Shown here one piece after another: positions 12,944 to 40,327 of a DNA stretch of 40,376 nucleotides; positions within the stretch are counted from its first letter, which is position 1; the number at the start of each line of letters is the position of its first letter. The stretch comes from Helicobacter cetorum (GTDB lineage Bacteria; Campylobacterota; Campylobacteria; Campylobacterales; UBA6016). A model generated the notes under the pieces. It was not told the origin of the DNA and made no database searches. It saw only the letters and a program-made list of their open reading frames with translations. The translations under genes and the position numbers were made by a program. Location: assembly GCA_022729705.1 (NCBI GenBank), contig DZAX01000019.1, positions 1 through 40,376 of the forward strand, in the 5' to 3' direction.

Positions 12944-13036
12944 ACTCTGCCGCTTTATGCGGCTAGCTTTAGGGGGTGCAGGGACATTTATGTCCTTGCC
13001 GCTAACACGGGCTTTGCCCGTGTTAGCGCATAACAT
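12944..13036 (+). repeat. Three-hairpin dispersed repeat, copy R1
   Basis: Hairpin 1 is gccgc/gcggc (12949-12963). Hairpin 2 is gcagggacat/atgtccttgc (12978-12999). Hairpin 3 is a perfect 13-bp stem cgctaacacgggc/gcccgtgttagcg with TTT loop (13000-13028), followed by the end motif taacat. The end motif abuts the rsmD stop codon (minus strand TAATGTTATGCG). Between the repeat and flgI lies the sigma-54 promoter. There is no T-run after hairpin 3, so it is not a canonical intrinsic terminator. Confidence 0.88.
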
Positions 13037-13614
13037 TAGGTGCTATAGTAGACCACAGAGCTCTTACCAAATTTTTTTGTTTTTTGCTCCACAAAAGAGC
13101 CTATTTTTTTAGGCAACTCATAGCCTGTCATAAACTCTACGGCAACTATATCCATTTGTTTTGGCTCTATGCTATCGATAAGAGATATACACTCTTCATA
13201 TATATTTTCCATGTTTTCACGAATACTAAAAGGCGGATCAAAATAAAATATTCTTTTCTCTTTTTTCCCAAGACTCTTTAAGAGTTCACCAAAATACTCA
13301 AAACTATCAACATTATATACTCTAGCGTTGTCAACATCCAAAGTATCAAGATTTTTTTGGATACACATATATGAGTTTCTATCTTTTTCCAAAAAGTAGA
13401 CAAACTCAGCCCCTCTACTAAGCGCCTCTATACCTATACTTCCGCTTCCGGCGAATACCTCCACAAATATAGAGTCCGCAACTTCGCCCTGAAGAGCGTT
13501 AAATACAGACTCTCTTATAATGTTTTTTGTGCTTCTTGTTACTGCAATATCGGCTAAAGTTATATTTTTGCCTTTAAATTTACCGGCTATAATTTTTGTG
13601 GATAACTGTTTCAT
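13036..13614 (-). CDS. rsmD: 16S rRNA (guanine966-N2)-methyltransferase
   Basis: RsmD methylates G966 of 16S rRNA in the 30S subunit using S-adenosylmethionine. At 192 aa it is typical. The SAM-binding motif is EVFAGSGSIGIEALSRGA (near residues 53-70). The catalytic N6/N2-methylase motif is DPPF (FYFDPPFS, near 122). The start ATG at 13614 overlaps the stop of the upstream small gene (ATGA). Repeat R1 begins right at its stop codon. The association with flgI is conserved in Campylobacter. Confidence 0.92.
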   Translation of the reverse strand: MKQLSTKIIAGKFKGKNITLADIAVTRSTKNIIRESVFNALQGEVADSIFVEVFAGSGSIGIEALSRGAEFVYFLEKDRNSYMCIQKNLDTLDVDNARVYNVDSFEYFGELLKSLGKKEKRIFYFDPPFSIRENMENIYEECISLIDSIEPKQMDIVAVEFMTGYELPKKIGSFVEQKTKKFGKSSVVYYST

Positions 13615-13997
13615 TTATGCTCTTTTATCACCCTAAGCAACTCTCTTACAAACTTTTCCGTAATAATAGAAACTTTTCTCTCCAAGGTAAGTCCTTCTCT
13701 TGAAGCCTGAGGCGCTCTTGGTTTTTCAGACTCATTTGATTTGCCTTGCTCATAGATAGTCTCCTGCTTTGGCTTGTTGCAATAAAGGTCAAGGGCTTTT
13801 AGTAATTTTGACTTTGAAAAAGGTTTTTTGAGATTAGCTCCGTTTTCAGAACCTATTAAAAACATAGGCTTTTCAACATCCAATTTTTTATCGCAGACAA
13901 CAAAATCACAAGCGGGATACGAGCTTAGTCGCTCTTTTAAAAACACCTCTAAGCACTTTTTCAAAAGAGGTGAGTCGCATTTTACATAAATCTTCAA
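13611..13997 (-). CDS. Conserved small protein next to rsmD (Cj1460-like position)
   Basis: This protein is 128 aa from my preferred start, a TTG at 13997 with GGAGG 5 nt upstream, giving MKIYVKCDSPLLKK. An earlier in-frame TTG at 14015 lacks a ribosome site. It has no signal peptide or membrane segment. The N-terminal 80 residues look alpha/beta (DFVVCDK, FLIGSENG). The C-terminal part is a polar linker and a basic helix (KVSIITEKFVRELLRVIKEH). I do not recognise a domain. The same small gene stands before rsmD and flgI in Campylobacter, which suggests a flagellar or ribosome-assembly link. Confidence 0.7.
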   Translation of the reverse strand: MKIYVKCDSPLLKKCLEVFLKERLSSYPACDFVVCDKKLDVEKPMFLIGSENGANLKKPFSKSKLLKALDLYCNKPKQETIYEQGKSNESEKPRAPQASREGLTLERKVSIITEKFVRELLRVIKEHK

Positions 13998-14040
13998 ATC
14001 TGCCTCCAAAGCCAATTTTTGACTCTAATTCTACCTAAAT

Positions 14041-14067
14041 TCAAATTTTACTAGCTTTTGCCGATAT
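14041..14067 (+). promoter_or_regulatory. Sigma-28 (FliA) promoter of flaG-fliD-fliS
   Basis: TCAAATTT (14041-14048), an 11-nt spacer, then GCCGATAT (14060-14067). The -10 matches the FliA consensus GCCGATAA in seven of eight bases, and the spacing is exact. The flaG ATG is 35 nt downstream, preceded by AAAGGGGGGG. Confidence 0.8.
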
Positions 14068-14101
14068 ATTAAGTTGAATAAATAATGGTAAAGGGGGGGT
14101 T

Positions 14102-14500
14102 ATGAATGGATTAGATATTTCATCCAGTATTCATTCGTTGCAAAATGGAATGAGGGTTGCTTTTGGAAGTATGTCAAATGCTGAGTCTGCACAGACACAT
14201 ACAAAAACGGTTGCTTCTTATACAGATGAGTATGTCAATATAGACGGCACAGACAAAAAAGTAACGGACGAAAAACTAAAACAGGAACTCATAAAATTAA
14301 CGGAACGACTAAATGTAGAGATGAATCCGCTAAACTTGCGTGTAAGGTTTGGCTATAACGATAAGATAGGGGAGATGTTTGTATCTGTATTTGAGAAAGA
14401 TTCAAACAGACTCTTGCGGAAGTTTCCAACAGACGAGGCGGTTGATTTAATGGCAAAAATGAGAGAAATCAACGGTATAATATTCGACAACAAAGCTTAA
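14102..14500 (+). CDS. flaG: FlaG family flagellar protein
   Basis: This 132-aa protein has a variable Ser/Thr-rich N-terminus and the FlaG domain at about residues 60-130: LTERLNVEMNPLNLRVRFGY, then ISVF-like MFVSVFEKDSNRLLRKFP and EAVDLMAKM. FlaG influences filament length in Campylobacter, and its gene usually precedes fliD. It begins the flaG-fliD-fliS operon behind a sigma-28 promoter with a strong AAAGGGGG ribosome site. Confidence 0.92.
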   Translation: MNGLDISSSIHSLQNGMRVAFGSMSNAESAQTHTKTVASYTDEYVNIDGTDKKVTDEKLKQELIKLTERLNVEMNPLNLRVRFGYNDKIGEMFVSVFEKDSNRLLRKFPTDEAVDLMAKMREINGIIFDNKA

Positions 14501-14514
14501 ATAAAGGATTTACA

Positions 14515-16494
14515 ATGGCTGCAATAAGCTCACTAGGACTTGGAAGCGGAACTCTTACAAGTGATTTACTAGACAAACTAAAAGCTGGAGAGACAAGCGC
14601 AACGGTCAATCCAATGACAAACTCCATAACAAAAATACAAAAACAAAAAACAGACTTATCGTCACTTATAGTAACAGCTTCATCTGCGAAAACAGCCGCT
14701 ATGGATTTAGGAGATGAGGCGACATACCTCAAAAGGACAGGCACAAGCAATAGTACCGATATAGGCTTAACTGTTGCAAACGGCGTAGCTCCGCAGAGTA
14801 TGACGATGACTGTGCAGCAACTAGCGCAAAACCATGTCATGAAAACAAGCGGGTTTGCAACATCAACCTCTATTGTAACATCCGAAGATAAAACAATGAA
14901 GATTGCGTTAGGCTCCAACACATACAGTATCAGCGTGACAGCCGGCACAACGCTAGAGCAGCTAGCGCAAAAAATAAACGATGCGACAAGCGGAGCCGTC
15001 AGTGCTGGAGTCTTAAACACAGGCACAGGTGCAAACCCATATGTAATGACGCTTAAAACAAAAGATACCGGTTCTGCAAACATTATGAAAATAACAAGTG
15101 AATTTGATCTTGAAATGACTACAAAACAAGGTTTTGAAAATAATGCGAAGACTGGAAGCATATCGCTTGATGCTGGCGATCTTAAAATAAACGGGGTTAG
15201 CATAGCGGCTCTAGACGCTACGGATGTGACTAACACAGATCAAGATAATGCGGAAGCCATAGTTGCCAAGATAAATGAGGCTACTACGACAACTGGAGTT
15301 AATGCATATACAGACGGTGACGGAAAAATATTTTTACAAAGTAAAAGTGGTGGGGCTATCGACGTAGTAACGGACAATGGAGCTGGAGACAAGATAGGAA
15401 CGGGGGCCGATGGAACCCTTAATATAGCGGCTGCCGCTCTTCAACAAGCCAAAGACGCTAAGTTTACCTACAACGGTATCGATATGACCAGGTCTAAAAA
15501 TGAGATTACAGACATTATCACCGGAGCCACTTTTAAGCTAAACAAAGTGACTACATCCAATGTAAACTTATCAGTCACGCAAGACACAACGGATATACCA
15601 AAATTTGCCGATACGTTTGTCAGTGCTTTTAATTCATTAAAATCAAAAATATCTGATTTGACGAAATATGACAGCGCCACAAAAACTTCCGGCTCTTTGC
15701 AGGGTATATCAGATGTTACCTCTATCTATAGTAAACTCTCAGCCCTAATTACAAAACAAAATGACGATAGCAAATCACTTGTGGATTACGGCTTCACGCT
15801 TAATAAAAACGGCACGCTAAATCTTGATAAGACTATTTTAAACGCAAAATTAAGCAGTGACCCTGCGGCTCTTGAAAAGATGTTTAGAGGTACGACAAAT
15901 ATCACAAAAGCGATATATTATGCACCATCAACATCAACGGATGAAGAGACTACGGTAGCCGCAGGCGATATAACAATAAATGGCAGAGCTATCGCCACCG
16001 TAACCACGGCAGATGGAACCGCCGAGTCAAATGCTCAAAAATTCGCTACGGCAATTAACGACATATATGAATCTACAGGCGTAAAAGCGTATACTGACGG
16101 CAGTGGAAAACTGAGATTAGAAAACCCTAGCGGCGGCGCAATAAAACTAAGAACCACAGAGACTGCGGCTACGGCGTCTGGCTTGACATTTGCCGCTCAA
16201 GATACAACAGTAGGCTATGGCTCTAGCACAAAAGTAAAAGGTTCCTTTGCAGAGATGAACTCTGCTCTTGGCTCTCTCATTAGCGGTGATAAGGCGACTT
16301 TAAATCTGCTCGATAAGTCTTTTCAGTCAAAAATTGATAGCCAAACAAAAGAAAAAGAAAAAGCTACAAAACTCATAGACCAAAGATATGAGATTATGGC
16401 AAAACAGTTTGCGCTTTACGATAGCATGATAAGTAAGTTTCAACAAAACTTTCAATCGCTTCAAATGCAGATAAACGCCGCAGCCAATGGCTAA
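14515..16494 (+). CDS. fliD: Flagellar filament cap FliD (HAP2)
   Basis: FliD caps the filament tip and guides flagellin folding. At 659 aa it is long but similar to Campylobacter FliD. The N-terminus (SSLGLGSGTLTSDLLDKLKA) and C-terminal coiled helices (KIDSQTKEKEKATKLIDQRY, then MAKQFALYDSMISKFQQNF) are the terminal domains that interlock in the cap. Two flagellin-IN-type motifs are visible, near residues 221-285 and 483-545. They resemble each other (KINGVSIAAL versus TINGRAIATV, then AYTDGDGKIFL versus AYTDGSGKLRL, each followed by SGGAI), so part of the exposed region arose by duplication. AAAGGA precedes the ATG. Confidence 0.95.
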   Translation: MAAISSLGLGSGTLTSDLLDKLKAGETSATVNPMTNSITKIQKQKTDLSSLIVTASSAKTAAMDLGDEATYLKRTGTSNSTDIGLTVANGVAPQSMTMTVQQLAQNHVMKTSGFATSTSIVTSEDKTMKIALGSNTYSISVTAGTTLEQLAQKINDATSGAVSAGVLNTGTGANPYVMTLKTKDTGSANIMKITSEFDLEMTTKQGFENNAKTGSISLDAGDLKINGVSIAALDATDVTNTDQDNAEAIVAKINEATTTTGVNAYTDGDGKIFLQSKSGGAIDVVTDNGAGDKIGTGADGTLNIAAAALQQAKDAKFTYNGIDMTRSKNEITDIITGATFKLNKVTTSNVNLSVTQDTTDIPKFADTFVSAFNSLKSKISDLTKYDSATKTSGSLQGISDVTSIYSKLSALITKQNDDSKSLVDYGFTLNKNGTLNLDKTILNAKLSSDPAALEKMFRGTTNITKAIYYAPSTSTDEETTVAAGDITINGRAIATVTTADGTAESNAQKFATAINDIYESTGVKAYTDGSGKLRLENPSGGAIKLRTTETAATASGLTFAAQDTTVGYGSSTKVKGSFAEMNSALGSLISGDKATLNLLDKSFQSKIDSQTKEKEKATKLIDQRYEIMAKQFALYDSMISKFQQNFQSLQMQINAAANG

Positions 16495-16528
16495 TTTGGG
16501 TTAACAAAATTTTGGGGGTATAATAAAT

Positions 16529-16900
16529 ATGAGGTCAAATGCGGTCAACGCATACGCGCAAAATGCAACTAGAGTAGAGTCGCCGGAGAAACTTGTACAA
16601 ATGCTTTTTGAGGGAGTGCTAAGATTTACGGCACAAGCAAAAAAAGCGATACAAGACGGCGATATAGATAAAAAAGTATACTGGATTAATAGAACCATAG
16701 ATATTTTTGCAGAACTTATAAACTCTCTAAATTATGAAAAAGGCGGTGATATATCAAACTATCTTAACGGTCTATATAGTCATCAAATATTTTTGCTTAG
16801 CACCGCAAATATTGAGAACACAATAGAACCTTTAGAGACGGTGATTTTGGTCACAAAAGGTCTTATAGACGCTTGGAAAGACGTCACTGGAGTAAAGTAA
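16529..16900 (+). CDS. fliS: Flagellin export chaperone FliS
   Basis: This 123-aa helical protein binds the flagellin C-terminus in the cytoplasm and prevents early polymerisation. Family landmarks are NAYAQNATRVESPEKLVQML near the start, the FTAQAKKAIQDGD and INRTIDIFAELINSLN helices, and LYSHQIFLLSTAN. It lies 34 nt after fliD, and its TAA shares a base with the ATG of the next gene (TAATG). Confidence 0.94.
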   Translation: MRSNAVNAYAQNATRVESPEKLVQMLFEGVLRFTAQAKKAIQDGDIDKKVYWINRTIDIFAELINSLNYEKGGDISNYLNGLYSHQIFLLSTANIENTIEPLETVILVTKGLIDAWKDVTGVK

Positions 16901-17130
16901 TGGAGTATTTAAACGAGTTAAAAGTCGCCGTAATAAACAGCGACTTTGCAAAAATGGATGAGCTTTCAGGCATAATGTTTACAAGCTCCGACAAAGTCGA
17001 GCTTGAAGAAGCGGCGGCTCTTATCAAAGAGGCGATGCGACTTTTGGACGAAGAGAGAGCAAAAACATTGGAAGAGATGCGAAATATCCAAAAAATTAGA
17101 AAATACGCCGAGGGTGATGCTAACTATTAG
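16900..17130 (+). CDS. Small helical protein after fliS, FliT-like
   Basis: I start it at ATG 16900 (76 aa), which overlaps the fliS stop as TAATG; the upstream in-frame TTG at 16873 would lie deep in fliS. It is helical, acidic and Leu/Glu-rich with no motif I can name. Size and position match FliT-type chaperones, which bind FliD. In Campylobacter an unnamed small gene also follows fliS. Repeat R2 begins at the base after its TAG stop. Confidence 0.65.
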   Translation: MEYLNELKVAVINSDFAKMDELSGIMFTSSDKVELEEAAALIKEAMRLLDEERAKTLEEMRNIQKIRKYAEGDANY

Positions 17131-17214
17131 ATGTTATACGCCAACACGGGCAAAGCCCGCATTGGCGGCAAGGACATAAATGTCCATTGATGCCCGCATA
17201 TAATGCGGGAGAGT
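17131..17214 (-). repeat. Three-hairpin dispersed repeat, copy R2
   Basis: This is a reverse-orientation copy. The end motif ATGTTATACG starts at the base after the stop codon of the upstream gene. Hairpin 3 (17139-17167) pairs fully, using two G.T wobbles when read in element orientation. Hairpin 2 is aaggacat/atgtcc with its 5' flank lost. Hairpin 1 is cccgca/tgcggg. The purine-rich spacer (agggggtgc in other copies) is deleted here. It lies between convergent genes. Confidence 0.85.
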
Positions 17215-17240
17215 GGAGGTTTTTACACCCATAAAGCACG

Positions 17241-18074
17241 TTAAGCTCTATATGATGTGAGTTTTATCTTTTTGACTTGCTCAAATGCATTTTGGACTCT
17301 TCTAAATTTAATCGTATATCGCTTTACGGTTTCTTCGTCTTTTCCATAGACTCTATCTGGATGATATATCTTGATGAGTTCCAAATATTTCTGCCTTATC
17401 GACTCCATACTATCTGTTTTTTTGGAATTTAGCTCTCCAAAGTACGCCTCTTTGAGCCTTTCGGAAGAGTCGGTAAAAAAACTATTTTTTGAATATTTGG
17501 AAAATGAATTTAGTTGTATTAGCTCTTCTTCGTTATATGTAAACTTAACTTGTAAAAAGTCGCTGAACTTGATATTTTTTTCAAGCAACTTTCTTAGCGC
17601 TATATACCCCTCTTTACTAGAAACTTTTACTTTGGCTATATTTTGATGGTAATCTACATCTACTTTTGCGCCAAAAAAACTTTTTTTTAGGAGCTCTACA
17701 ATACGTTTTGTCTCATCTGAAAATCTAAAAAAAACGCTGTCATTTCGGCAATTTACCACTATTTTACCGGCATTAAAACCTTCTTTTGATTGTGCAAACT
17801 CCACAAAAAAGGGTACATTTGGATTAAATTCAAAAAAAACTTTTTCGCTTCTTGTTTTGTTAAAGTTATCAAGAAGGCAACTGGCAAAAAACTGCCGCTT
17901 TTTTCTATCTTCATTTTTTGGAAAAATCAAAATTGATTCTTTTAGATGAATAAAAAATTTAAAATTTTTCTGTATATAGTGTCTTATATATTCGGAATAT
18001 GCCTCATCAGTCGCATCCACGCGAGCCAGTATCATATTTTCCGTGTGAGTAATAGCAAAAACTTGACTATTCAT
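17241..18074 (-). CDS. J-domain protein with C-terminal J domain
   Basis: This protein is 277 aa from ATG 18074 (an in-frame TTG at 18089 also has a possible ribosome site). The J domain is at the very C-terminus (residues about 215-277): YLELIKIYHPDRVYG contains the HPD motif (H238-D240) needed to stimulate DnaK ATPase. The N-terminal 200 residues have no zinc finger or G/F region and match no domain I know. So this is a DnaK co-chaperone of type III with its own targeting region, common in Campylobacterota. It lies between repeats R2 and R3. Confidence 0.83.
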   Translation of the reverse strand: MNSQVFAITHTENMILARVDATDEAYSEYIRHYIQKNFKFFIHLKESILIFPKNEDRKKRQFFASCLLDNFNKTRSEKVFFEFNPNVPFFVEFAQSKEGFNAGKIVVNCRNDSVFFRFSDETKRIVELLKKSFFGAKVDVDYHQNIAKVKVSSKEGYIALRKLLEKNIKFSDFLQVKFTYNEEELIQLNSFSKYSKNSFFTDSSERLKEAYFGELNSKKTDSMESIRQKYLELIKIYHPDRVYGKDEETVKRYTIKFRRVQNAFEQVKKIKLTSYRA

Positions 18075-18126
18075 CACCCAGCTCTCCAATTATTTTTAAA
18101 TGGAACCAGCAAAAGCCGTTCCGTTT

Positions 18127-18222
18127 GATGCTATACGCCAACACGAGCGAAGCCCGTGTTAGCGGCAAGGACATAAATGTCCCTGCACCCCCTGAGGCTA
18201 CCCGCCGTAGGCGGGAGAGTGC
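18127..18222 (-). repeat. Three-hairpin dispersed repeat, copy R3
   Basis: This is a full reverse-orientation copy between the rny stop (10 nt away) and the J-domain gene start. In element orientation: hairpin 1 cccgcc/ggcggg, hairpin 2 gcagggacat/atgtccttgc, and hairpin 3 (18136-18164) with 13 pairs of which two are G.T wobbles, loop TTC. The end motif is tatagcatc. The copy can be read through as a short peptide beginning MLYANTSEARVSG, which I reject as a gene. Confidence 0.88.
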
Positions 18223-18232
18223 AATACAGGGA

Positions 18233-19801
18233 CTACCTAGCAAACTCAGTCGCCCTTGTTTCTCTAATAACGCTAACTTTTATTTCACCGGGATACTGAA
18301 CGCCTTTTTCTATTTCAGCCGCTATCTCTCTTGCTATAAGAGCTGATTCGTCGTCGTTTACTAAAGAGGCGTTTACTATTACTCTTATCTCTTTACCGGC
18401 GGCTATCGCATACGCATTTTTGACGCCTTTGTGCGAGAGGGCGATTTTTTCCAACTCTTCCACTCTTTTCAAAAAGCTCTCAAGCACCTCTCTCCTAGCC
18501 CCCGGTCTAGCCGCCGATAGAGCGTCCGCCGTACAAACCGCCGCACACTCGATGGAACGAGCCTCTTCCAGCCCGTGATGTGCGTAGATGGCGTTTATTA
18601 CAACGCAGTGCTCTTTATATCTTTTGCAAACATCGGCGCCAAGGTCAACATGACTTCCTGAGTAGTCGTGAGTCAACGCCTTACCAATATCATGAAGCAA
18701 AGCGGCTCTTTTTGCCAGCGTCTCATCGCCGCCAAGCTCTGCGGCTATAATACCCGCCAAATGCACAACTTCCAAAGAGTGAGCCAAAGCGTTTTGACCG
18801 TAACTCGCTCTATATTTTAGTCGCCCTATCAGCTTAATAAGCTCTGGATTTACATGCCCGACTCCAAGGTCGATTACTATATTTTCACCCTCTTCATACA
18901 TTTTTTCATCAAATTCTAGTTTGACTTTTTCATATATCTCTTCTATTTTTGCTGGCTGTATTCTACCATCTTCTATGAGAAGCTCGATTGTTTTTGTAGC
19001 AATAGAACGTCTAAGAAGGTTAAAGCTGCTCACAATAATAGCGTTTGGCGTATCGTCCACGATAACGTCTACGCCAAGGAGCATCTCAAGAACTTTTATA
19101 TTTCGCCCCTCTTTACCGATAATACGCCCTTTTATCTCTTCGCTATGAATATGTACAACATTTATCAATCTCTCAGCCGCAAACTCTCCGGCATATCTAG
19201 TGGTGGCTTGAGCGATAATATAGTTTGCTTTTTTTCTGGCCTCCGCTTTCGCTTCCGCCTCATAACGTCTGACAATATGCGCTATCTCTTCTCTGCAATT
19301 CTCTTCTGTTTTTTTAAGCGCTATCTCTTTTGCCTCGCGCCTTGTAAGCCCAGCACCGGACTCTACTATTTTTAAAGCCTCTTCCGCTTTTAGCGCATAT
19401 TCGTCTTTAATTCGTTCGAGCTCTTTTTTGTTCAAAAGTATCTCTTCTTTTAAAGAAGCAGTCTCTCTCTTTTGCGACTCCAAAGCTCTTAATTCGCTTT
19501 TTGTTTTCTCAGAGAGACTCTCCTCTTTTTTTGAAAGAAGCTCTTGTTTTATGTCGTAATCACGTTTTAATCGCACAAGCTCAAGCTCAACTTTTTTTCT
19601 AGCGTCAAGCTCTAGGTTTATCTCCTTTGCTTTTATGCTCTCAAGTTTTAGCTCAGCCTCATGCTCTATCGCTCTAGCTTTTGATTTTGACTGCTCAATA
19701 TAGATTTGATACTTTGCGGAATCCAATTTTTTTGCTACGAAAAATCCTATTAGCCCTGACGACGCAGCGGCTGCCGTAGCCGTTAATACTGTTGTAAGCA
19801 T
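18233..19801 (-). CDS. rny: Ribonuclease Y
   Basis: RNase Y is a membrane-anchored endoribonuclease that starts mRNA decay. At 522 aa it has full family architecture: one N-terminal membrane helix (residues 5-23), a long charged coiled coil to about 200, a KH domain with GRIIGKEGRNIKVLE, and an HD domain with H370/D371 in LLHDIGKALTHDYSGSH. The ATG at 19801 lies inside the end of the cyclo-ligase gene, a 107-nt overlap, so the two are translated from one message. Repeat R3 follows its stop closely. Confidence 0.95.
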   Translation of the reverse strand: MLTTVLTATAAAASSGLIGFFVAKKLDSAKYQIYIEQSKSKARAIEHEAELKLESIKAKEINLELDARKKVELELVRLKRDYDIKQELLSKKEESLSEKTKSELRALESQKRETASLKEEILLNKKELERIKDEYALKAEEALKIVESGAGLTRREAKEIALKKTEENCREEIAHIVRRYEAEAKAEARKKANYIIAQATTRYAGEFAAERLINVVHIHSEEIKGRIIGKEGRNIKVLEMLLGVDVIVDDTPNAIIVSSFNLLRRSIATKTIELLIEDGRIQPAKIEEIYEKVKLEFDEKMYEEGENIVIDLGVGHVNPELIKLIGRLKYRASYGQNALAHSLEVVHLAGIIAAELGGDETLAKRAALLHDIGKALTHDYSGSHVDLGADVCKRYKEHCVVINAIYAHHGLEEARSIECAAVCTADALSAARPGARREVLESFLKRVEELEKIALSHKGVKNAYAIAAGKEIRVIVNASLVNDDESALIAREIAAEIEKGVQYPGEIKVSVIRETRATEFAR

Positions 19802-20363
19802 TATTTATTCTGCCTTTTGCGAAAATTTTATTCGGTAATATTAAATAATCCCCAACCGCATCATGCGCCTCCCCTATCTCTTCTTTGCTAAATAAAAGAG
19901 TCCTTTGGACAAACGCAATAGGCGGTTTGTATGAAAGGGAGTCAAAGAATCTATCATACATACCTCTGCCAAAGCCGATTCTTCTGAATTTTGAATCAAT
20001 CCCGATTGCGGGAACGATAGCTAAATCAATTTTTTTTATAAACCCTAAGGACTGAGCGCAACTCTGTATATTGTATGCGCCCCTACTAACAGGCAACCTG
20101 TATTTTACAATCTTAAAACTAATATCCTCTATAAAAGGAACATAAATAACCACTCCTCTCGCCCTTAAGTGCCGTATTGCGCCATTAATATTTGGCTCAA
20201 TGGAAAGCGGCAAAAACATCAAAATAGTTTTTGGGTTTTTCCTTTCAATAAACCAAAGCAAATTTTTTTCAAACAACTTATCTTTATTATAAGCTCTGTT
20301 TTTTTGTAATTTTTTTAAACTCTCTTTTGATTTCACTCTAAAGTTCTGTTTTTTATTTTCCAA
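19695..20363 (-). CDS. 5-formyltetrahydrofolate cyclo-ligase
   Basis: This enzyme converts 5-formyl-THF to 5,10-methenyl-THF with ATP in one-carbon metabolism. The conserved parts are an N-terminal helix with basic residues, FLPLSIEPNINGAI, IYVPFIED, and the active-site loop RRIGFGRGMYDRFF. The family usually ends soon after the HDAVGDYLILP strand. Here about 40 more residues run on, inside the first 107 nt of rny, so the tail may be an ancestral overlap or the mark of a lost stop. TTG start at 20363 has GGAG 7 nt upstream; the nearby ATG is out of frame. Confidence 0.85.
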   Translation of the reverse strand: MENKKQNFRVKSKESLKKLQKNRAYNKDKLFEKNLLWFIERKNPKTILMFLPLSIEPNINGAIRHLRARGVVIYVPFIEDISFKIVKYRLPVSRGAYNIQSCAQSLGFIKKIDLAIVPAIGIDSKFRRIGFGRGMYDRFFDSLSYKPPIAFVQRTLLFSKEEIGEAHDAVGDYLILPNKIFAKGRINNAYNSINGYGSRCVVRANRIFRSKKIGFRKVSNLY

Positions 20364-20403
20364 AAACCATCTCCAAAGCTTTTTTGGTTAAGCGCATAGA
20401 GTT

Positions 20404-20409
20404 TATAAT
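20404..20409 (+). promoter_or_regulatory. Candidate -10 box for the tlpA-ftsY-radA operon
   Basis: TATAAT lies 30 nt before the lipoprotein ATG, within a 75-bp divergent intergenic region. No good -35 is visible, which is normal for promoters of this phylum. AAGGA at 20429-20433 is the ribosome site. Confidence 0.45.
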
Positions 20410-20438
20410 CTTTTTACTGATATTACAAGGAAAAAAAT

Positions 20439-20984
20439 ATGAAAAAAGTAACGATTTCAGCTTTGATAATCTCATCATTAGCGCTTATTTTTGTCGGTTG
20501 CGGCAAAAAAGAGGATGCTAGTTCTTTGGTTAGCGCAAAACAGCTGGTTAAAAATATGGAACTTACGGGCGTTGATGGTAAAAAATTGACTTTAGTTGAC
20601 ACGGGAAGCGGGTTTAAAGTGCAAGAACTAAACGGCAAGACTACGCTAATCGTATTTTTCGCCACTTGGTGCCCGCCTTGTAAGGCGGAGATACCGCACC
20701 TTGTAGCAATGCAAGAAAAATACAAAAACGATTTTGAGGTTGTCGCTATACTTGCGGAAGAGAACAAAACAAACGAAGAGATGAGTGCTTTTATAAAAGA
20801 GCAAAACATCAACTACTTTGTGGCGAATGCACCCTCAAATATGGAAGTCGCAAGAGTTTTTGGCGTAAGAGGTTTTCCAACAATGTTTATGTTTGACAAA
20901 AACGGAACCAAAGCCGCATACTATCCGGGAGCTACGCCGGTTGACATAATAGAACAAGATATACTTAAAACGCTTGGAAAATAG
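20439..20984 (+). CDS. Thioredoxin-fold lipoprotein, TlpA/ResA type
   Basis: This 181-aa protein has a lipoprotein signal (LIFVGC, lipidated C21), so it is anchored at a membrane facing the periplasm. The thioredoxin domain spans about 45-178 with active site WCPPC (C78, C81) and cis-proline P147 in RGFPTMFMF. CPPC-type TlpA/ResA proteins act as reductants, for example in cytochrome c maturation or protection of periplasmic thiols. The partner is unknown. It is 3 nt before ftsY, which suggests one operon for envelope protein biogenesis. Confidence 0.92.
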   Translation: MKKVTISALIISSLALIFVGCGKKEDASSLVSAKQLVKNMELTGVDGKKLTLVDTGSGFKVQELNGKTTLIVFFATWCPPCKAEIPHLVAMQEKYKNDFEVVAILAEENKTNEEMSAFIKEQNINYFVANAPSNMEVARVFGVRGFPTMFMFDKNGTKAAYYPGATPVDIIEQDILKTLGK

Positions 20985-20987
20985 AAG

Positions 20988-21866: not shown

Positions 21867-21870
21867 TCTC

Positions 21871-29696: not shown

Positions 29697-30028
29697 AAAC
29701 GGTTCATAGATGGAAAAAGGACACGAGTACGGAAGATAAAAAGAGTGGCGCAAAAAAGATTAAATCATCCCTTTATCGTGGCTTACAACGCAATGGTTTA
29801 TCGGTATTACTAAAGAGTGAAGATGAGCCGAGAGAGAAGAAAAAGTTTAAAGAATATGAAATAGGCTTTGTGTATGTTGACATCACTTAAGCAATCATTA
29901 AGAAATTGAAAGCTTTGACGTTTAAAAGTCCATACGATACGCTACTTGAAAAGTTCGACTCAAATCCTGAGCTTTTTAAAGATAAACCTTGCCGGAAGTT
30001 GAGGGGATTAAACAGGATTAAAAAATAA
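29697..30028 (+). pseudogene. IS481-type transposase remnant, internally deleted
   Basis: Translation from 29702 gives VHRWKKDTSTEDKKSGAKKI, the helix-turn-helix end and linker of IS481-family transposases. FKEYEIGFVYVDIT, the first strand of the DDE domain, then meets a stop (TAA) near 29888. The downstream part IKKLKALTFKSPYDTLLEKF and DSNPELFKDK is the family's C-terminus. The centre of the DDE domain and the N-terminus are missing. It ends with TAA at 30026-30028, directly before the mnmH start. It shares sequence with the remnant at 38.4 kb. Confidence 0.8.
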
Positions 30029-31147: not shown

Positions 31148-31240
31148 ACTCTCTCGCATAGCGGGTAGCTTTAGGGGGTGCAGGGACATTTTATGTCCTT
31201 GCCGCCAATACGGGCTTTGCTCGTATTGGTGTGTAACATC
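31148..31240 (+). repeat. Three-hairpin dispersed repeat, copy R5
   Basis: This forward copy ends 14 nt before the HD-GYP gene. Hairpin 1 is short (ctcgc/gcggg). Hairpin 2 is gcagggacat/atgtccttgc with an extra T pair in the loop. Hairpin 3 (31203-31231) pairs over all 13 positions with compensatory changes against R1 (C-G for T-A at position 4, T-A for C-G at position 7) and two G.T wobbles. The flanking 31049-31147 holds only AT-rich sequence. Confidence 0.88.
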
Positions 31241-31254
31241 AAAAAGGAAGCAAG

Positions 31255-33423: not shown

Positions 33424-33426
33424 AAT

Positions 33427-34662
33427 ATGGAAAAGATACTAATAGTCGAGGACAATAAGGCGCTAGCAAAAGCGTTATCGGCGCACATTTCAAAAATATC
33501 CAAATACGTCGTAGTTATTGCGCACTCAATGGAAGAAGCAAAAAAAGCGACCGAAAACGAAAGTTTTCTCGCAGCTCTTCTTGACTTAAATCTTCCAGAC
33601 GCACCAAATGGAGAAGTGGTTGATTATATCTTAGCTCTCAATATACCCTCCATTATTCTAACGGCAAACTTTGACGAAGCTACAAAAAAAGTTGTTCTTC
33701 AAAAACCGATTATAGATTATGTCTATAAAGACAAACTAAAAGATGTGGATTATATCATCACAAAAGTAGAGAGATTAGAGAAAAACAGAACCCAAAAGGT
33801 TTTGGTAGTGGACGATTCTAGGGTAATTAGAGCTGAGATTAAAAACTACCTATCCAGAGAGCTTTATCAAGTATTAACGGCGGCTAACGGCGAAGAGGCA
33901 CTCTGGCTTTACAATAACGACCCCGATATTTCGCTTGTAGTTACAGACTACAATATGCCAATTATGAACGGGCTTGAGCTAGTAGAGAAGCTAAGAGAAA
34001 TAACCACAAAAAACACGCTCTCAATTGTTGGTATCTCTTCAAACGATGAGACGGCGGCAAATTTTTTAAAGTTTGGAGCAAATGATTTTATAAAAAAGCC
34101 GTTTACCAAAGACGAGTTTGTGTGTCGTGTCAATAACGCCGTAGAAGCCCTTGAAAACATAAAACAAATAAGGCAAATATCTATAACTGATTTTTTAACG
34201 GGCATCTACAACAGACGTCATTTTTTTGAAAAATTTGCAGACTACTACAATAAGGCGGTTGAGGTTGGCGAGCCTTTTGCGTTGGCGACATTCGATATAG
34301 ATAATTTCAAATCCATTAATGACGCTTATGGGCACCCAGTAGGAGATGAGGTGATTAAAATAACGGCAAATGCGTTACGAAACTATGCAAAAGGAACTGA
34401 CGTTGTAGCCAGAATAGGCGGGAAAGAGTTTTGCGTGCTACTAAAATCAATAAATGCGGGCAACGCCATCGCCCTCATCGACTCCATTAGACGGGCTATT
34501 TCATTGACCGCCTTACAGCTAAAAAACGGCGAAACATTGCGTTTTACGGTATCGGCAGGACTCTCCACAAATGCGCTAAGCTCAATGGAAGATATGATTG
34601 ATCATAGCGATGCGCTACTTTATAGAGCTAAAACAAGCGGTAAAAATTGTGTAATGTATTAG
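33427..34662 (+). CDS. REC-REC-GGDEF protein with variant GGKEF site
   Basis: This 411-aa protein has receivers with D53 (ALLDLNLPD) and D174 (VVTDYNMP), then a GGDEF domain (about 245-411) with ATFDIDNFKSINDAYGHPVG and VARIGGKEF. The signature residue that binds metal, D or E, is K333 here. The inhibitory RxxD site is KGTD, so its arginine is lost too. The architecture is that of Campylobacter CbrR. It may be a non-catalytic GGDEF acting as regulator or scaffold beside the HD-GYP enzyme; that is inference. Repeat R6 begins at the base after its stop. Confidence 0.92.
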   Translation: MEKILIVEDNKALAKALSAHISKISKYVVVIAHSMEEAKKATENESFLAALLDLNLPDAPNGEVVDYILALNIPSIILTANFDEATKKVVLQKPIIDYVYKDKLKDVDYIITKVERLEKNRTQKVLVVDDSRVIRAEIKNYLSRELYQVLTAANGEEALWLYNNDPDISLVVTDYNMPIMNGLELVEKLREITTKNTLSIVGISSNDETAANFLKFGANDFIKKPFTKDEFVCRVNNAVEALENIKQIRQISITDFLTGIYNRRHFFEKFADYYNKAVEVGEPFALATFDIDNFKSINDAYGHPVGDEVIKITANALRNYAKGTDVVARIGGKEFCVLLKSINAGNAIALIDSIRRAISLTALQLKNGETLRFTVSAGLSTNALSSMEDMIDHSDALLYRAKTSGKNCVMY

Positions 34663-34708
34663 ATGTTATACGCTAACACGGGCAAAGCCCGCATAAATGT
34701 GGGAGAGG
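34663..34708 (-). repeat. Truncated three-hairpin repeat, copy R6
   Basis: The end motif ATGTTATACG starts at the base after the TAG stop of the GGDEF gene. cgctaacacgggcaaagccc follows as in other copies. The sequence then jumps to gcataaatgtgggagagg, which is hairpin 1. Hairpin 2 and half of hairpin 3 are missing; the join lies in the GCGGG shared by hairpins 1 and 3. It sits between convergent genes. Confidence 0.8.
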
Positions 34709-34727
34709 TTGTGCTGCAAGGGCTTGA

Positions 34728-36509
34728 TTAAAAACTCTTTTCATACCATCTGCTGAAAATATAGAGTCCCCAAAGATGATGCCTAAAGCCTTTGTCGTGC
34801 CTTGGTTTTAGGTAAAACTCTATATTTTTTGTATTAAAGAGTCCGGTTTTTGCGGCGACTCTTCTCACTACGTCCAAATCCCCATCTTCTCTTAACCACT
34901 CCATAAATGGATAGCTAAACCCTTTTTTCTCTCTTCTGGTAATAACGGGCGGCAAAATGTCCGAAAAAGCCTCTTTGAGAAATGATTTTGGAGAAGTCGG
35001 AATTTTGTAGGTACTTTGGATACTAAGTGAATGCACTACAAACTCTCTATCCAAAAATGGGGCTCTCACCTCTATGCCGTTTGCCATAGATACTCTATCT
35101 ACTTTATGCAAAAGCGCCTCGTCAAGCCACAATCTCAAATCGACAAACGACGCCCAACGCCAGTAGTCTCCGCCTCCGCCCGCCTCAAACTCTTTTCTAA
35201 TGTCGCCAAGCATCTCTAAAGACGAAATTGCGCCGCCTGTGAGAAGCCTCTCTCTTTGCGAATCAAGGAAGTTTTCACCATATCCACGATAAACAGGCTC
35301 ATCTCTAAACACTCTCAAAAACCACTCCCACTCTTTGTTGTAGGCGATATTTGCGCTAAAGTAGTTTTTGAGCCACCCCTTATACGGCGCCTCTCTCATA
35401 GCTTCAAACTTTGCGTATTCTGAGTATTTGCGGTATCCGTAATATTGCTCGTCGCTCCCCTCCCCGCTTAAGACGCATTTGACGCCGCTCTCTCTTATGC
35501 GTCTCATCAAAAAATCAAGCGGTAATCCGGCTGGGTCGTTGAGAGGCTCGTCCATATAGCCCACAAAACGCTCTAGCGAATCGAAAAAATCAGTTTTGGA
35601 AAACACAAACTCTGAGTGTCTGGCTCCAAAAATTTCAGCACTCTCTCTCGCCGCCGCTCTCTCATCGTACCCGTCATAACCCTCATAGCCTACCGTAAAC
35701 GTTTGAAGCTTTTTTCCGCATATCTTTGACGCGGCTCCAAGTACAAGAGCGCTGTCTAATCCGCCGGACAAGAGAGAGCCAACCTCTGTGTCGGCGGAGA
35801 GCCTAAGCGAAAGAGAGTCAAAAAAAAGCTCTCTTGTTTTTTGTATAGACTCCTCTTTTGAGCTTTTATTTATAGGCTTAAGTGGTGTGTCAAATCTGCT
35901 TTTAAAGATAGAACCGTCATCAAACTCCAACAGCTCTCCGGCATGAAGCTTAAAAATATCTTCATAAATAGTATGGGGCGCCACAGGCGATAAAAAGCCA
36001 AAAAAACCGTTTAATCCCTCTTTTGAAATAGTTTTATTTTTTAGGTGCGGCAACAGGGCTTTTATCTCTGAGGCAAAAAATAGCGAGCCGTTGAGAAGTG
36101 TATAAAAAAGAGGTTTTTTGCCGATAGCGTCGCGGGCTAGAAGTAGTTTGCGACCATCCCAAAAAGAAATGGCGTACATACCACGAAGTTTTGTTAAAAA
36201 AGCTTTGCCATGCGCCAAAAGCCCGCATAGCACTACGTCGCCCTCAGAGAAAGGCTCCGATATATGTAGCTCTTTTGCAAGGCTTTTATAGTTGTAGATT
36301 TCGCCATTAAATACGACTCTTGCCAAACCGCACGCAAAAACGCCGCCGTTTTGCTCTATATCCATAATAGCTAAGCGAGTTTGTCCAAAAAAATAGCCGT
36401 TTGCAGCTTCAAAAGAGACGCCGTCAGTTCCTCGCGGCGCAAGCGAGTCCAAAGAACGCTCTGCCGCATTGCGGTTATAGTCGCCGACTACTCCGAAAAT
36501 CCCGCACAT
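34728..36509 (-). CDS. asnB: Glutamine-hydrolysing asparagine synthetase paralogue
   Basis: This 593-aa protein has an N-terminal glutaminase domain with catalytic C2 (MCGIFGVVGDY) and VFNGEIYNY, and a C-terminal synthetase domain with the pyrophosphate loop SLLSGGLDSALV near 250 and GEGSDEQYYGYRKY. The last motif differs from the usual GEGSDELFGGY. It is the third gene of an operon whose first two make a sugar nucleotide, 6 nt after the acetyltransferase. In that setting AsnB paralogues such as WbpS amidate uronic acids, so the acceptor may be a sugar rather than aspartate. No clear ribosome site precedes the ATG. Repeat R6 lies after its stop. Confidence 0.87.
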   Translation of the reverse strand: MCGIFGVVGDYNRNAAERSLDSLAPRGTDGVSFEAANGYFFGQTRLAIMDIEQNGGVFACGLARVVFNGEIYNYKSLAKELHISEPFSEGDVVLCGLLAHGKAFLTKLRGMYAISFWDGRKLLLARDAIGKKPLFYTLLNGSLFFASEIKALLPHLKNKTISKEGLNGFFGFLSPVAPHTIYEDIFKLHAGELLEFDDGSIFKSRFDTPLKPINKSSKEESIQKTRELFFDSLSLRLSADTEVGSLLSGGLDSALVLGAASKICGKKLQTFTVGYEGYDGYDERAAARESAEIFGARHSEFVFSKTDFFDSLERFVGYMDEPLNDPAGLPLDFLMRRIRESGVKCVLSGEGSDEQYYGYRKYSEYAKFEAMREAPYKGWLKNYFSANIAYNKEWEWFLRVFRDEPVYRGYGENFLDSQRERLLTGGAISSLEMLGDIRKEFEAGGGGDYWRWASFVDLRLWLDEALLHKVDRVSMANGIEVRAPFLDREFVVHSLSIQSTYKIPTSPKSFLKEAFSDILPPVITRREKKGFSYPFMEWLREDGDLDVVRRVAAKTGLFNTKNIEFYLKPRHDKGFRHHLWGLYIFSRWYEKSF

Positions 36510-36515
36510 GGTTCG

Positions 36516-37085
36516 CTAGAGTAGCGTCACTCTCCCATTTTCTAGCTTATATTTCGTGTCGTCGCTTTTATCAACAGCTATATCATCCGTATCAAATGAG
36601 AGTTTATAACCGGCTTTTGAATACCAAGCTTTTATTTTCGCGGGAGAGCCATATACCAACGCAAATGCGGGAATATCCCTAGTCACAGTACTTCCGGCAC
36701 CGACAAATGCGTATTCGCCAATAGTAACGCCGCATACCACCGTGCAATTAGCACCCAAGCTAGCACCTTTTTTTACGATAGTTTTTTTATACTCGTTTTT
36801 ACGAACTATAAAGCTTCGCGGGTTTATCACGTTTGTAAATACAGCCGAGGGTCCTATAAAAACGTCGTCTTCTATCACGACTCCGTCATAAAGACTGATA
36901 TTATTTTGCGCTTTTACATTGTCGCCGATTATGGCATTTGGTCCTATGACGCAATTTTGTCCGAAAGAGCAGTTTTTGCCTATCCTGCTTCCCTCAATCG
37001 CATGACAAAAATGCCAAATCTTCGTACCCTCGCCTATCTCTACGCCATCATCAACATATGACGATTCGTGCACAAAATATGACAT
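36516..37085 (-). CDS. Left-handed beta-helix acetyltransferase, WbpD-like
   Basis: This protein is 189 aa from ATG 37085, which has GAGG 6 nt upstream; an earlier in-frame TTG overlaps the previous gene and lacks a site. Hexapeptide repeats run through it (IGEGTKIWHFCHAIEGSRIG, then CVIGPNAIIGDNVKAQNN, and ASLGANCTVVCGVTIG). The sequence closely follows WbpD, which acetylates the 3-amino group of a UDP-sugar using acetyl-CoA. Related FdtC/QdtC enzymes act on dTDP-amino sugars, so the substrate is uncertain. It follows the aminotransferase by 1 nt. Confidence 0.88.
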   Translation of the reverse strand: MSYFVHESSYVDDGVEIGEGTKIWHFCHAIEGSRIGKNCSFGQNCVIGPNAIIGDNVKAQNNISLYDGVVIEDDVFIGPSAVFTNVINPRSFIVRKNEYKKTIVKKGASLGANCTVVCGVTIGEYAFVGAGSTVTRDIPAFALVYGSPAKIKAWYSKAGYKLSFDTDDIAVDKSDDTKYKLENGRVTLL

Positions 37086-37086
37086 C

Positions 37087-38181
37087 TTAAACCTCAAAAA
37101 ACTGTTTTATTTTTTCGCATACGAATAGCGCATCATCCACGCTTAGGTGTTCACCAATAGGCAACGACAGCAACTCTGCATCAACACGGCATGCGAAAAA
37201 TCCTTTTGTCTCCTGCGTAATATATGAGTACGCCGCAAGCTTTGGCAAGGCTACCGGATAGTGCACGCCCGTCTCAATGGCGCAATCAGCCAAAAATGCC
37301 TTAAGGTCGTCTCGCTTTGCGCTTCGCACAACAAATAGATGCCATGCGTGCTTTCTATTTTCATAAATAGTCGGCAAGACTAAGGGCGTAGAAGCCAGCT
37401 CTTTTAGATAGATTTTTGCTACTTCATCTCTTTTTTTGAGCCATCCGTCAAGATGTGGAAGCTTTACGCTCAAAATTGCCGCCTGAAGAGCATCAAGTCT
37501 TGAGTTTCTACCCTCAAACTCATGGTCATATTTGCCTGAGCGTCCGTGGTTTGCGTACATTTTGCTATTTTTTGCAAACTCATCATCGTTTGTGATTATT
37601 GCGCCGCCGTCGCCGTAGGCACCTAAATTTTTGCCGGGATAAAAGCTAAACGTAGAAGCCGTACCAAAAACACCTACTCTTTTACCCTCAAACTCCGCAC
37701 CGTGAGCCTGTGCGCTATCCTCCAAAAGAAAAAGAGAGTATTTATCGCAAAACGTTTTTAACTCATTCATATCGCAAGGCAATCCGTAAAGATGTACGCA
37801 AATAACAGCTTTTACGCTCTCATCCATTAAAGCTTCTACGCTTTTTACGTCTATCGTATAATCTTCTTTGACATCGGCAAAAACAACCTGAAAACCTGAA
37901 TTTGAAACAGCCTCGCTTGTAGCGATAAAACTATTGGCTGGAACAACTACTTTCGAGCCTTGCGGCAAAGCCAAAGCTTTTAAAGCTATTTCAATAGCGT
38001 CCGTCCCATTGCCAACTCCGACGCAATGTTTTGTGCCAATGTATACAGCAAACTCATTTTCAAATTTTTTTACTCTCTCACCGCCTATATATGCGGAGTC
38101 CGCTATTACGCCCTCAATCGCCGCGTCTACTTGCGGCTTTATACTTTTGTATTGAGAGTAGAGATCTAAGAATTTAATCAT
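37087..38181 (-). CDS. DegT/DnrJ/EryC1 sugar aminotransferase
   Basis: This 364-aa PLP enzyme transfers an amino group to a keto-sugar nucleotide. Family marks are FLDLYSQYKSIKPQVDAAI at the start, GVGNGTDAIEIALKAL, LLEDSAQAHGAE, and the PLP lysine K184 in FSFYPGKNLGAYGDGG. With the WbpD-like gene next, a WbpE/FdtB-like role (3-amino group installed, then acetylated) is likely. The product would be part of lipopolysaccharide, capsule or a protein glycan. GGAA lies before the ATG. A decayed transposase lies upstream, within about 90 nt. Confidence 0.9.
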   Translation of the reverse strand: MIKFLDLYSQYKSIKPQVDAAIEGVIADSAYIGGERVKKFENEFAVYIGTKHCVGVGNGTDAIEIALKALALPQGSKVVVPANSFIATSEAVSNSGFQVVFADVKEDYTIDVKSVEALMDESVKAVICVHLYGLPCDMNELKTFCDKYSLFLLEDSAQAHGAEFEGKRVGVFGTASTFSFYPGKNLGAYGDGGAIITNDDEFAKNSKMYANHGRSGKYDHEFEGRNSRLDALQAAILSVKLPHLDGWLKKRDEVAKIYLKELASTPLVLPTIYENRKHAWHLFVVRSAKRDDLKAFLADCAIETGVHYPVALPKLAAYSYITQETKGFFACRVDAELLSLPIGEHLSVDDALFVCEKIKQFFEV

Positions 38182-38264
38182 AAAATTTCCATATTTTTAG
38201 TATTTGCAAATGAATAATTTTTTTATATTCGGATATTTTTCTATTTTTTTTCGCAATAAGCCAA

Positions 38265-38605
38265 TTAAATTGTTTAATCCCCTAAACTGTAGGTACGGAT
38301 TATCTTTAAAAAAGTTCGGGGCTGGAGTCAAACTTTTCTAGCAATATAGTATAAGGAGTCTTAAACTTTAAAGCTTTTAATTTCTTCTGGTGGTTATAAT
38401 ACAGAAGATAACTCATCAGGTGTTGCTTAAGATGGTTTTGTTAAATATCTCCACTTGTCCATTAGTCTAGGGGTGTTTAAATTTAGGGTCTAAACTCACA
38501 GACAATTTGCTGTTCTGTGTCGCTTAGCGATGATTTAATCTTTTTAGCACCACTCTTTTTATCTTCTGTGCTTGTATCTCTTTTCCATCTATGAACCGTT
38601 TATAG
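38265..38605 (-). pseudogene. Second IS481-type transposase remnant, frameshifted and deleted
   Basis: On the minus strand, VHRWKRDTSTEDKKSGAKKI and SDTEQQIVCEF are the linker region. After a deletion come HPXTNGQVEIFNKTIL-like codons with stops (the DDE C-terminal part) and YYNHQKKLKALKFKTPY, ILLEKFDSSPELF and, after a one-base shift in a T-run, KDNPYLQFRGLNN. It shares its 5' end and C-terminus with the 29.7-kb remnant but has a different deletion. The rest of 38182-38676 is AT-rich leader DNA for the two divergent genes and the fliK promoter. Confidence 0.8.
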
Positions 38606-38622
38606 TCGTAATGAAATAACTA

Positions 38623-38640
38623 TTGGAACTTTATTTGCTT
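38623..38640 (+). promoter_or_regulatory. Sigma-54 (RpoN) promoter of fliK
   Basis: TTGGAACTTTATTTGCTT has GG (38625-38626) and GC (38637-38638) exactly 12 nt apart, the same form as the flgI promoter. Transcription should start near 38650; the fliK ATG is at 38677 with GAAGG upstream. The IS481 remnant ends about 18 nt upstream, where an RpoN activator site might be expected. Confidence 0.88.
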
Positions 38641-38676
38641 TATTAGATCAAAATTCAGTTTTGAAGGTTATGAAAG

Positions 38677-40122
38677 ATGAGCGAGCAGATAGTAGCGCAA
38701 AAAACCGCCGCCTCAAAAGCAAACGGCAAGACCAATCCTCTCGCCGGAATGCTAAAAGCGGGGCAAACGGACATAAAAGACGGTAAAGAGTTTATCAAAA
38801 AACTCGTTGAGATGGCAAAAAAAGGGGAGATAGAGCTAGATAAAAACGGCTCTGTAAAGATAAAGAAAACTCAGATCAAAGAAGAAGATATAGATGCGAC
38901 AACTCTTCTAAACATCAAAAGCCTGCTCTCAAATATAAAACAAAACGACAAAATGGCGATAGACAAAACCGTAAAAGAGCTAAGAGACGCTGCGGCAAAA
39001 CTAGATAGCAAAAAAGACGTCGGCGATACGCAAGCCTTGAAAAAACTACTAGAATTAGCCAAAGACGGCGGTGCAAACGTCAAAAAAATAAAAGTAGAAA
39101 AAGTAGAAACGGCGGCGGATGAAGAAGTGACTGACGCACAATCAAAAAAAGCTAAAAAAACTAAAACGGAAGCGGAAACAAAAGCGGATGCAAAAGCCAA
39201 GCCTGAAATTAAGGCGGAAACAAAAGCGGATGCAAAAGCCAAGCCCGAAATTAAGGCGGAAACAAAAGCGGTTTTAGAGCAAAACTTGGCGGCGCAAAAA
39301 AGTTTGGCTGAAAAGAGTGAAAAAGCGGCAAAAACGGATGCGGCAATGAAAATCATCTTGAATCCAAAAGAGGCTCCAAAAGAGGCTACGTTAGCGGCAC
39401 TGTTGCAAGAGATAAAAAAAGACGGCAAAAAAGATACGGATGTAAAAAAAGAGCTTGACGCCAAAAAAGAGGCGAAAAAAGAAGTTCTTGCAAAAACCGA
39501 ATCGCAAAAAGAGAGTGCCGTCATAGACGCAAAACTACAAACAGAGACGATAATCGCCGCAGAGATTGGAGCTAAAAAAGAGCTGACAAAAGAGATTATT
39601 AAAGAAGCGATTACAGAGGAGTTAACAGCCAAAACAGAGCAAGCGCAAGCAACGCTCATGGAAGCCCCGAAACAAGCCGAAACAGAACTAAAGGGCAAAA
39701 TGGCGGTAGCCTCGGAAGCTCTTAAAAACTTTTCATCGGACATGAAAGAGATGATAGAGAGCTATAAGCCGCCTGTCATGAAAGTATCGATGGAGCTAAA
39801 TCCGCATAATCTAGGCGCCGTGGACGTAACACTTATTACAAGAGGTCAAAACCTAGTAGTCAACGTCTCCTCAAGCCAAGAGACAATGCAGATGTTTATG
39901 CAAAACATCACAGAGTTCAAGCAAAATCTAGCGGCGCAAGGCTTTGTAAGCTTGCAAATGAATTTTAATTTCTCGGATAGCAATAAAGACCAAAATAGTC
40001 AAAGCAAGGGTTACCAAAAAGAAGCGACAAGAAAATATCAGATAAGTAGCGAGGATATGAGCCTCGGCTCTGCTACGGCTGATAGTCTTGACATCATAAT
40101 GCCTCATCCAAAGTATGCATAA
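38677..40122 (+). CDS. fliK: Flagellar hook-length control protein FliK
   Basis: FliK is a secreted ruler that stops hook growth and switches export to filament proteins. At 481 aa, residues 1-340 are Lys/Glu/Ala-rich and disordered, the ruler part. The C-terminal Flg_hook domain (about 355-445) has MELNPHNLGAVDVTLITRGQ, then NLVVNVSSSQETMQMFMQN and LAAQGFVSLQMNF. An in-frame 42-bp tandem repeat adds two 14-residue units, so hook length could vary with copy number. Sigma-54 control fits its hook-stage role. Repeat R7 lies downstream. Confidence 0.92.
   Translation: MSEQIVAQKTAASKANGKTNPLAGMLKAGQTDIKDGKEFIKKLVEMAKKGEIELDKNGSVKIKKTQIKEEDIDATTLLNIKSLLSNIKQNDKMAIDKTVKELRDAAAKLDSKKDVGDTQALKKLLELAKDGGANVKKIKVEKVETAADEEVTDAQSKKAKKTKTEAETKADAKAKPEIKAETKADAKAKPEIKAETKAVLEQNLAAQKSLAEKSEKAAKTDAAMKIILNPKEAPKEATLAALLQEIKKDGKKDTDVKKELDAKKEAKKEVLAKTESQKESAVIDAKLQTETIIAAEIGAKKELTKEIIKEAITEELTAKTEQAQATLMEAPKQAETELKGKMAVASEALKNFSSDMKEMIESYKPPVMKVSMELNPHNLGAVDVTLITRGQNLVVNVSSSQETMQMFMQNITEFKQNLAAQGFVSLQMNFNFSDSNKDQNSQSKGYQKEATRKYQISSEDMSLGSATADSLDIIMPHPKYA
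39172..39271 (+). repeat. In-frame 42-bp tandem repeat within fliK
   Basis: There are two full units (39172-39213, 39214-39255) and a 16-bp partial unit (39256-39271). Units encode AETKADAKAKPEIK and differ by one silent T/C change. Because 42 is divisible by three, slippage would lengthen or shorten the ruler region by 14 residues without breaking the frame. Confidence 0.92.
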
Positions 40123-40169
40123 AATAAAAAACGGAATAAGCTTTGCTTGTTAACATACAACATCGGTAA

Positions 40170-40219
40170 AAACTCTGCCGCTTTATGCGGCTAGCTTCGG
40201 CGACTCATGCCGCAAACAT
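40170..40219 (+). repeat. Partial repeat unit preceding R7
   Basis: aactctgccgctttatgcgg plus ctagctt is hairpin 1 as in R1. It then breaks into cggcgactcatgccg (a further small stem cggc/gccg) instead of the usual spacer. R7 is therefore a composite, like R1. Confidence 0.65.
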
Positions 40220-40230
40220 AGCAAAACAAG

Positions 40231-40327
40231 GTGCTCTCCCGCCTTTGGCGGGTAGCTTTAGGGGGTTGCAAGGGACATTCATGTCCCTGCCGCAAAACAC
40301 AGGCTTTGCCTGTGTTTTGCGTAATTG
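40231..40327 (+). repeat. Three-hairpin dispersed repeat, copy R7
   Basis: This forward copy lies downstream of fliK. Hairpin 1 is perfect (cccgcc/ggcggg). Hairpin 2 is agggacat/atgtccct. Hairpin 3 (40291-40321) is a perfect 14-bp stem cgcaaaacacaggc/gcctgtgttttgcg with TTT loop; most of the upper stem differs from the other copies while pairing is kept. The end motif is degenerate (gtaattgt). The last 49 bases of the window hold nothing I recognise. Confidence 0.88.

Follow-up and report, generated by a model that had tools for sequence, protein, structure and literature searches.

A Campylobacterota family of small hairpin-rich repeats with the features of MITEs and a probable IS701-type mover

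The repeats scattered through the window, by which we mean the whole 40,376-nucleotide stretch of DNA analysed here, are best explained, at a probability of roughly 70% and judging from sequence comparison, as a MITE family that is confined to one phylum, depends on IS701-type transposases acting in trans, and is unusual for its covarying hairpins and conserved linker. The family displays the traits by which a MITE is recognised: terminal repeats, 7-bp target duplications, a high copy number without coding content, and an autonomous relative whose ends are identical. The original prediction had likened the repeats to REP/BIME or MITE elements, and the second half of that comparison is upheld by the inverted repeats, the 7-bp duplications and the IS701 partners, whereas the REP/RAYT half is not. 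As detailed below, the copies in the window's own genome correspond mostly to the 3' part of a longer element that is found complete in related genomes.

Seven copies had been proposed in the window, and all are borne out: a covariance model generated from 12 own-genome copies recovers six of the seven places as full cores (67-116 bits), while the remaining one, at 34663-34708, is an internally deleted copy. The features are as follows.

12944..13041, + strand: core copy, hairpins 1-3 and right end GCGCATAACATTA; 115.5 bits
17126..17214, - strand: core copy with the greater part of the hairpin 1-2 linker missing; 66.7 bits
17215..17250, - strand: possible, weakly suggested decayed left end (hairpin 0) of the preceding copy, from inspection
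18123..18220, - strand: core-only copy, 14 bp past a gene stop codon; 106.2 bits
24912..25010, + strand: core copy; 102.8 bits
31148..31244, + strand: core copy; 99.9 bits
34663..34708, - strand: copy with an internal deletion that joins hairpin 1 directly to hairpin 3 and the right end
40171..40197, + strand: fragment, hairpin 1 and start of the linker only
40233..40334, + strand: core copy with altered right end; 75.6 bits

On inspection of the sequence, the candidate left end at 17215..17250 overlaps the end of the adjoining ORF. The window also holds two inverted, degraded IS-like transposase regions with broken frames, at 29697-30014 and 38271-38601, segments of which are complementary (76 nt at 88% and 42 nt at 83%).

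This is a repeat family far beyond chance. The covariance model search, with 150 candidates scored, detected at least 147 copies in the 2.19 Mb of the own genome, in support of the earlier estimate of hundreds per genome. The hairpins are in turn backed by strong covariation. Folded as single-stranded DNA, two window copies scored 5.6 and 7.0 standard deviations better than dinucleotide shuffles (z of -5.6 and -7.0), and 97.1% of the stem cells are paired in the 12 own-genome copies, as compared to 34-45% when the partners are slid by 1-3 bases. Among 94 copies from about 60 genomes, changes on both sides were found in 26 of the 29 stem pairs and every covariation measure exceeded all 500 shuffles, counts that lean towards structure because the alignment was fitted to the model. 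A template-switch mutation that restores hairpins could also mimic part of such covariation. In the same 94 copies, stem 1 ranges from CCCGC/GCGGG to CGAAAA/TTTTCG, with whole stems differing between genomes, and almost all pairs of stem 3 vary, whereas the hairpin linker GTAGCTTTAGGGGGTTGTAGGGAC is nearly invariant. Some copies are more elaborate: a composite subfamily of the own genome (L019, L026, L006, L010, L015 and L031) carries, upstream of the core, an additional hairpin module of about 80 bp that is homologous from copy to copy (GGGCAAAGCCCAAAATGAGGTCTTCAGC...GCTCTCGCG), and an extra hairpin is located within the hairpin 1-2 linker region of L224 and L227 (both G062), L008 (5939-6004) and L013 (938-1003).

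Alignment of flanks from many genomes revealed the layout of the complete element, CTGACCTTACGCAC-loop-GTGCGTAAAACCTYTTA-[core]-GTGCGTAACATCAG, which in related genomes spans 118-145 bp and of which the three hairpins form the 3' two-thirds. The three hairpins of the proposed unit of about 95 bp are real, but the complete form also includes a left terminal repeat and, upstream of hairpins 1-3, an optional fourth hairpin (hairpin 0), both absent from most own-genome copies. The element is bounded by 14-bp terminal inverted repeats, CTGACCTTACGCAC ... GTGCGTAA[GG/CA]TCAG. Allowing up to three mismatches in 104 copies whose loci were anchored on the core linker only, we recovered the left repeat in 41 and its right counterpart in 62, compared with none for the reversed control; genome-wide in G029, the repeat ends gave 57 and 48 matches against 0 and 2 for the control. 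Outside the own genome, 15 of 39 two-ended copies are flanked by exact 7-bp target duplications (permuted mean 0.83, maximum 4 in 2,000), for example TAAATAA, TTATAAA, TTAAGAG, TTAAAAG, TTAGTTA and TTATTAT, the duplicated target being AT-rich and roughly TTAATAA. G029 and G062 harbour several size forms with the same ends, namely 118 bp (without hairpin 0), about 143 bp, and 177-221 bp, the latter with an additional hairpin in the linker region. Unrelated palindromic elements of 46-64 bp and 257-267 bp also carry these ends in the two genomes, without the three-hairpin core in those of G029 (L208-L214 and L217).

The terminal repeats also point to a candidate mover, since IS701-family (DDE) transposons of Campylobacterota have the same ends as the element, and in G062 and G404, both of which bear the element, the identity extends over 14 bp. 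In G062, which is rich in the 143-bp form, many contigs break some 40-55 bp inward of such an end, and at these contig ends the 14/14 repeat reads into two recurrent interiors, MKTD... and ...NQITYSELQKLKGA-stop, with the stop codon of the latter inside the terminal repeat. The MKTD... N-terminus matches NCBIfam NF049921, an IS701-family transposase, and longer relatives of the transposase match Pfam DDE_5. A family search for a complete IS in G062 found none, the interior being unassembled; read from the collapsed contig ends, an IS with element-like ends is nevertheless likely present. In G404, a transposase C-terminus ends at a 14/14 repeat, and the element itself has a copy about 1.1 kb from there (L303). 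Transposase N-termini adjoin identical or near-identical repeats at L297, L229, L230 and L244, and a partial transposase adjoins a near-identical one at L236. The final transposase codons lie inside the repeat at L221, L236 and L303. A complete related IS of 1203 bp (L296) has CTGATGTTACGATA at both ends and matches NF049921 with 264 bits, while no intact IS701 element with CTGACCTTACGCAC at both ends was seen in a single contig. From these shared ends we infer that an IS701-type transposase moves the element. The partner IS is otherwise gone from the own genome, where a transposase remnant persists as a 70-aa fragment (C6:49187), and IS701-type transposases are absent or fragmentary in the copy-rich G005, G001 and G002.

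The mechanism that we propose starts from a non-autonomous element composed of 14-bp inverted ends, the optional hairpin 0, and hairpins 1-3 joined by the nearly invariant linker. An IS701-family DDE transposase, encoded by an IS with matching ends, would most likely act on it in trans, in excision as in insertion. Insertion would occur into AT-rich intergenic sites resembling TTAATAA, of which 7 bp are duplicated. The hairpins may be kept as an aid to the spread of the element, or for harmlessness between genes, as suggested by the equal use of both strands beside tandem genes. The covarying internal stems are not explained by the MITE mechanism itself, because a MITE does not need them.

Placement and turnover were assessed from the flanks of about 90 of the at least 147 own-genome copies and from copies elsewhere. 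In agreement with the claim that all copies are intergenic, only 8 of 89 own-genome and 3 of 143 other copies fall inside a predicted ORF, where genes were called by a simple ORF rule and several of the ORF-internal cases represent short spurious ORFs. No strand bias is apparent relative to tandem genes (26 versus 21 in the own genome, 32 versus 34 elsewhere), and in the own genome 4 copies lie between divergent genes as opposed to 21 between convergent ones. Comparison of syntenic intervals with two sister species, about 75% identical, demonstrated that, for three copies in the window, one or both species lack the element in the corresponding interval. The original prediction had suggested such a check of filled and empty sites. 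The sites of 12944..13041 and 17126..17214 are empty in both, and at 18123-18220 G001, the only informative sister there, has an intergenic stretch that is shorter by 52 bp in all.

The own genome differs from its relatives in the left end. With up to three mismatches, the left terminal repeat is retained in 6 and the right in 33 of 84 copies, and 7-bp duplications are at chance level (1 versus 0.6 expected). Because only a fragment of the transposase of the IS is left and most copies have no left end, this population looks old, or spread partly by other means. Either the left halves were lost or decayed while selection kept the core, or the core spreads alone. It is conceivable, though rather unlikely, that the core constitutes a structured module, conserved across the phylum through covariation and an invariant linker, that spreads independently or was selected after insertion, and that occurs both alone, as in most copies of the own genome, and between IS701-type ends; one structured unit would then have two propagation modes. 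A stricter version, in which the three-hairpin core moves as a module of its own by some unnamed route and was also captured between IS701-type terminal repeats, we consider unlikely. Core-only copies do outnumber complete ones and retain the right end. Of 50 core-only copies of the own genome, 12 start no more than 30 bp from the end of a gene and leave no room for a lost left half; the copy at 18123-18220 likewise starts 14 bp past a stop codon that is conserved in a sister species. However, no duplication was found at the core-only boundaries in any register, the left half could have been lost via deletion or decay, and folding indicates that pairing between the linker and the left half is possible in complete elements, so that a common history and co-evolution of both are favoured.

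A further reading regards the repeats as a functional RNA or RNA-processing element selected after insertion, such as an mRNA 3'-end stabiliser or a regulator. The covarying stems and almost invariant linker, the conservation in the own genome of the core and not of the left half, and the enrichment between convergent genes would all be congruent with such a role. We nonetheless judge it distinctly improbable: both strands are equally frequent beside tandem genes, copies are unshared at all three testable sister-species sites, no T-run follows the last hairpin, and Rfam yielded no match at the gathering threshold and chance-level matches only below it.

REP/BIME-type elements, which a RAYT (Y1) transposase moves in single-stranded form, share with the repeats their hairpins, intergenic sites and hundreds of copies. 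Tandem arrays (L021 and L031), the GTAG that the linker contains and the presence of two RAYT-like genes in the own genome also speak for such elements, yet this reading fails because RAYT genes are unflanked by copies and the sister species G001 and G002 bear copies without any Y1 match, and for complete copies it is strongly disfavoured. Specifically, the RAYT gene flanked by copies that the original prediction proposed to look for was not encountered: the model (E<=0.1) found no copy in the loci of about 3 kb around 16 Y1/RAYT genes, including the own two, which sit among other repeats. Moreover, the GTAG is positioned 3' of stem 1 rather than before a hairpin, a GTAG that also opens hairpin 2 in many genomes is paired, and the element has inverted repeats and target duplications, which RAYT-type transposition does not make. 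The own RAYT-like genes encode a 247-aa protein amid GGGTGTCAGGCACTCTTTTATG repeats of a family distinct from the element (L034, G000:C17:5643-8978) and a 240-aa protein with GGAAGTGGGGCTTTAGCCCCGC-type hairpins in and around the gene (L035, G000:C72:12942-16178). Separately, one copy lies just downstream of an IS605-type element with tnpA interrupted by TGA and tnpB intact (L033, G000:C48:29422-32787), but the right end of the IS stops before the copy, and a link was rejected.

Turning to distribution, an exact pattern of linker and hairpin 2 recovered at least 111 stretches from 84,980 species genomes. Among the matches listed, including Sulfurimonas, Sulfurovum, Sulfuricurvum, Sulfurospirillum, Arcobacter and unclassified relatives, all named ones are Campylobacterota and one record is given only as 'bacterium'; almost all of these loci match the full covariance model. 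As far as searched, the family thus appears restricted to this phylum. Within it the occurrence is patchy. Among 60 relatives, many copies are present in G000, G001, G002, G005, G029 and G040 (at least 26 in G001 and at least 15 in G002, the sister species), and the element was undetected in most of the others, including congeners of G005 and G029. Within one genus (g4), one genome has 59 copies and another 50, whereas a third gave no detection, and 14 of 121 genomes in a phylum-wide sample match. Transfer by plasmid or phage was set aside as IMG/VR viral contigs, plasmids and phages gave no match at the sensitivities used.

For a phylum that matters in the cycling of sulfur and nitrogen, the family represents a further mobile repeat of high copy number, and it explains many of the intergenic repeats, and many of the breaks, in metagenome assemblies of the Sulfurimonas type. 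Mobility by terminal inverted repeats only does not require hairpins, and the family could hence provide a natural test of why small elements moved by DDE transposases keep them through compensatory change.

The view that this is not an already named family holds, considering the many copies and the lack of an Rfam, plasmid or phage match, and our literature search, in which few subscription journals were covered, returned no paper describing the element. ERIC, BOX, Correia/NEMIS and RUP are likewise small, structured and dispersed, are probably mobilised in trans, and in some cases have conserved RNA-like folds or modules; they belong to other phyla and have other terminal sequences and target duplications. 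Compared through Rfam, these showed no sequence match to the element. REPs are single palindromes of 20-40 bp, the GTAG families of which accompany Y1 transposases (PMC2817692, PMC3733652). REP/BIME elements resemble the family in being extragenic hairpins in hundreds of copies, but the single palindrome and the Y1-linked GTAG are unlike it. One of these sources reports GTAG and CGTC repeats in Sulfurovum NBC37-1, which may conceivably be identical with part of the element (PMC3733652). With the IS701 family (NF049921, DDE_5) the element has its terminal repeats in common, the IS encoding a transposase and the element none. Described members of this family duplicate 4-5 bp and are not known to duplicate 7. 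The closest likeness is to IS-derived bacterial MITEs, which are similarly short, non-coding, intergenic and abundant, with inverted ends and a duplication of fixed length, and the ends of the element match a DDE-transposase IS in related genomes. Unlike these, however, it has only the ends of the IS, of about 14 bp, instead of being an internal deletion derivative, and carries a conserved four-hairpin interior across many genera.
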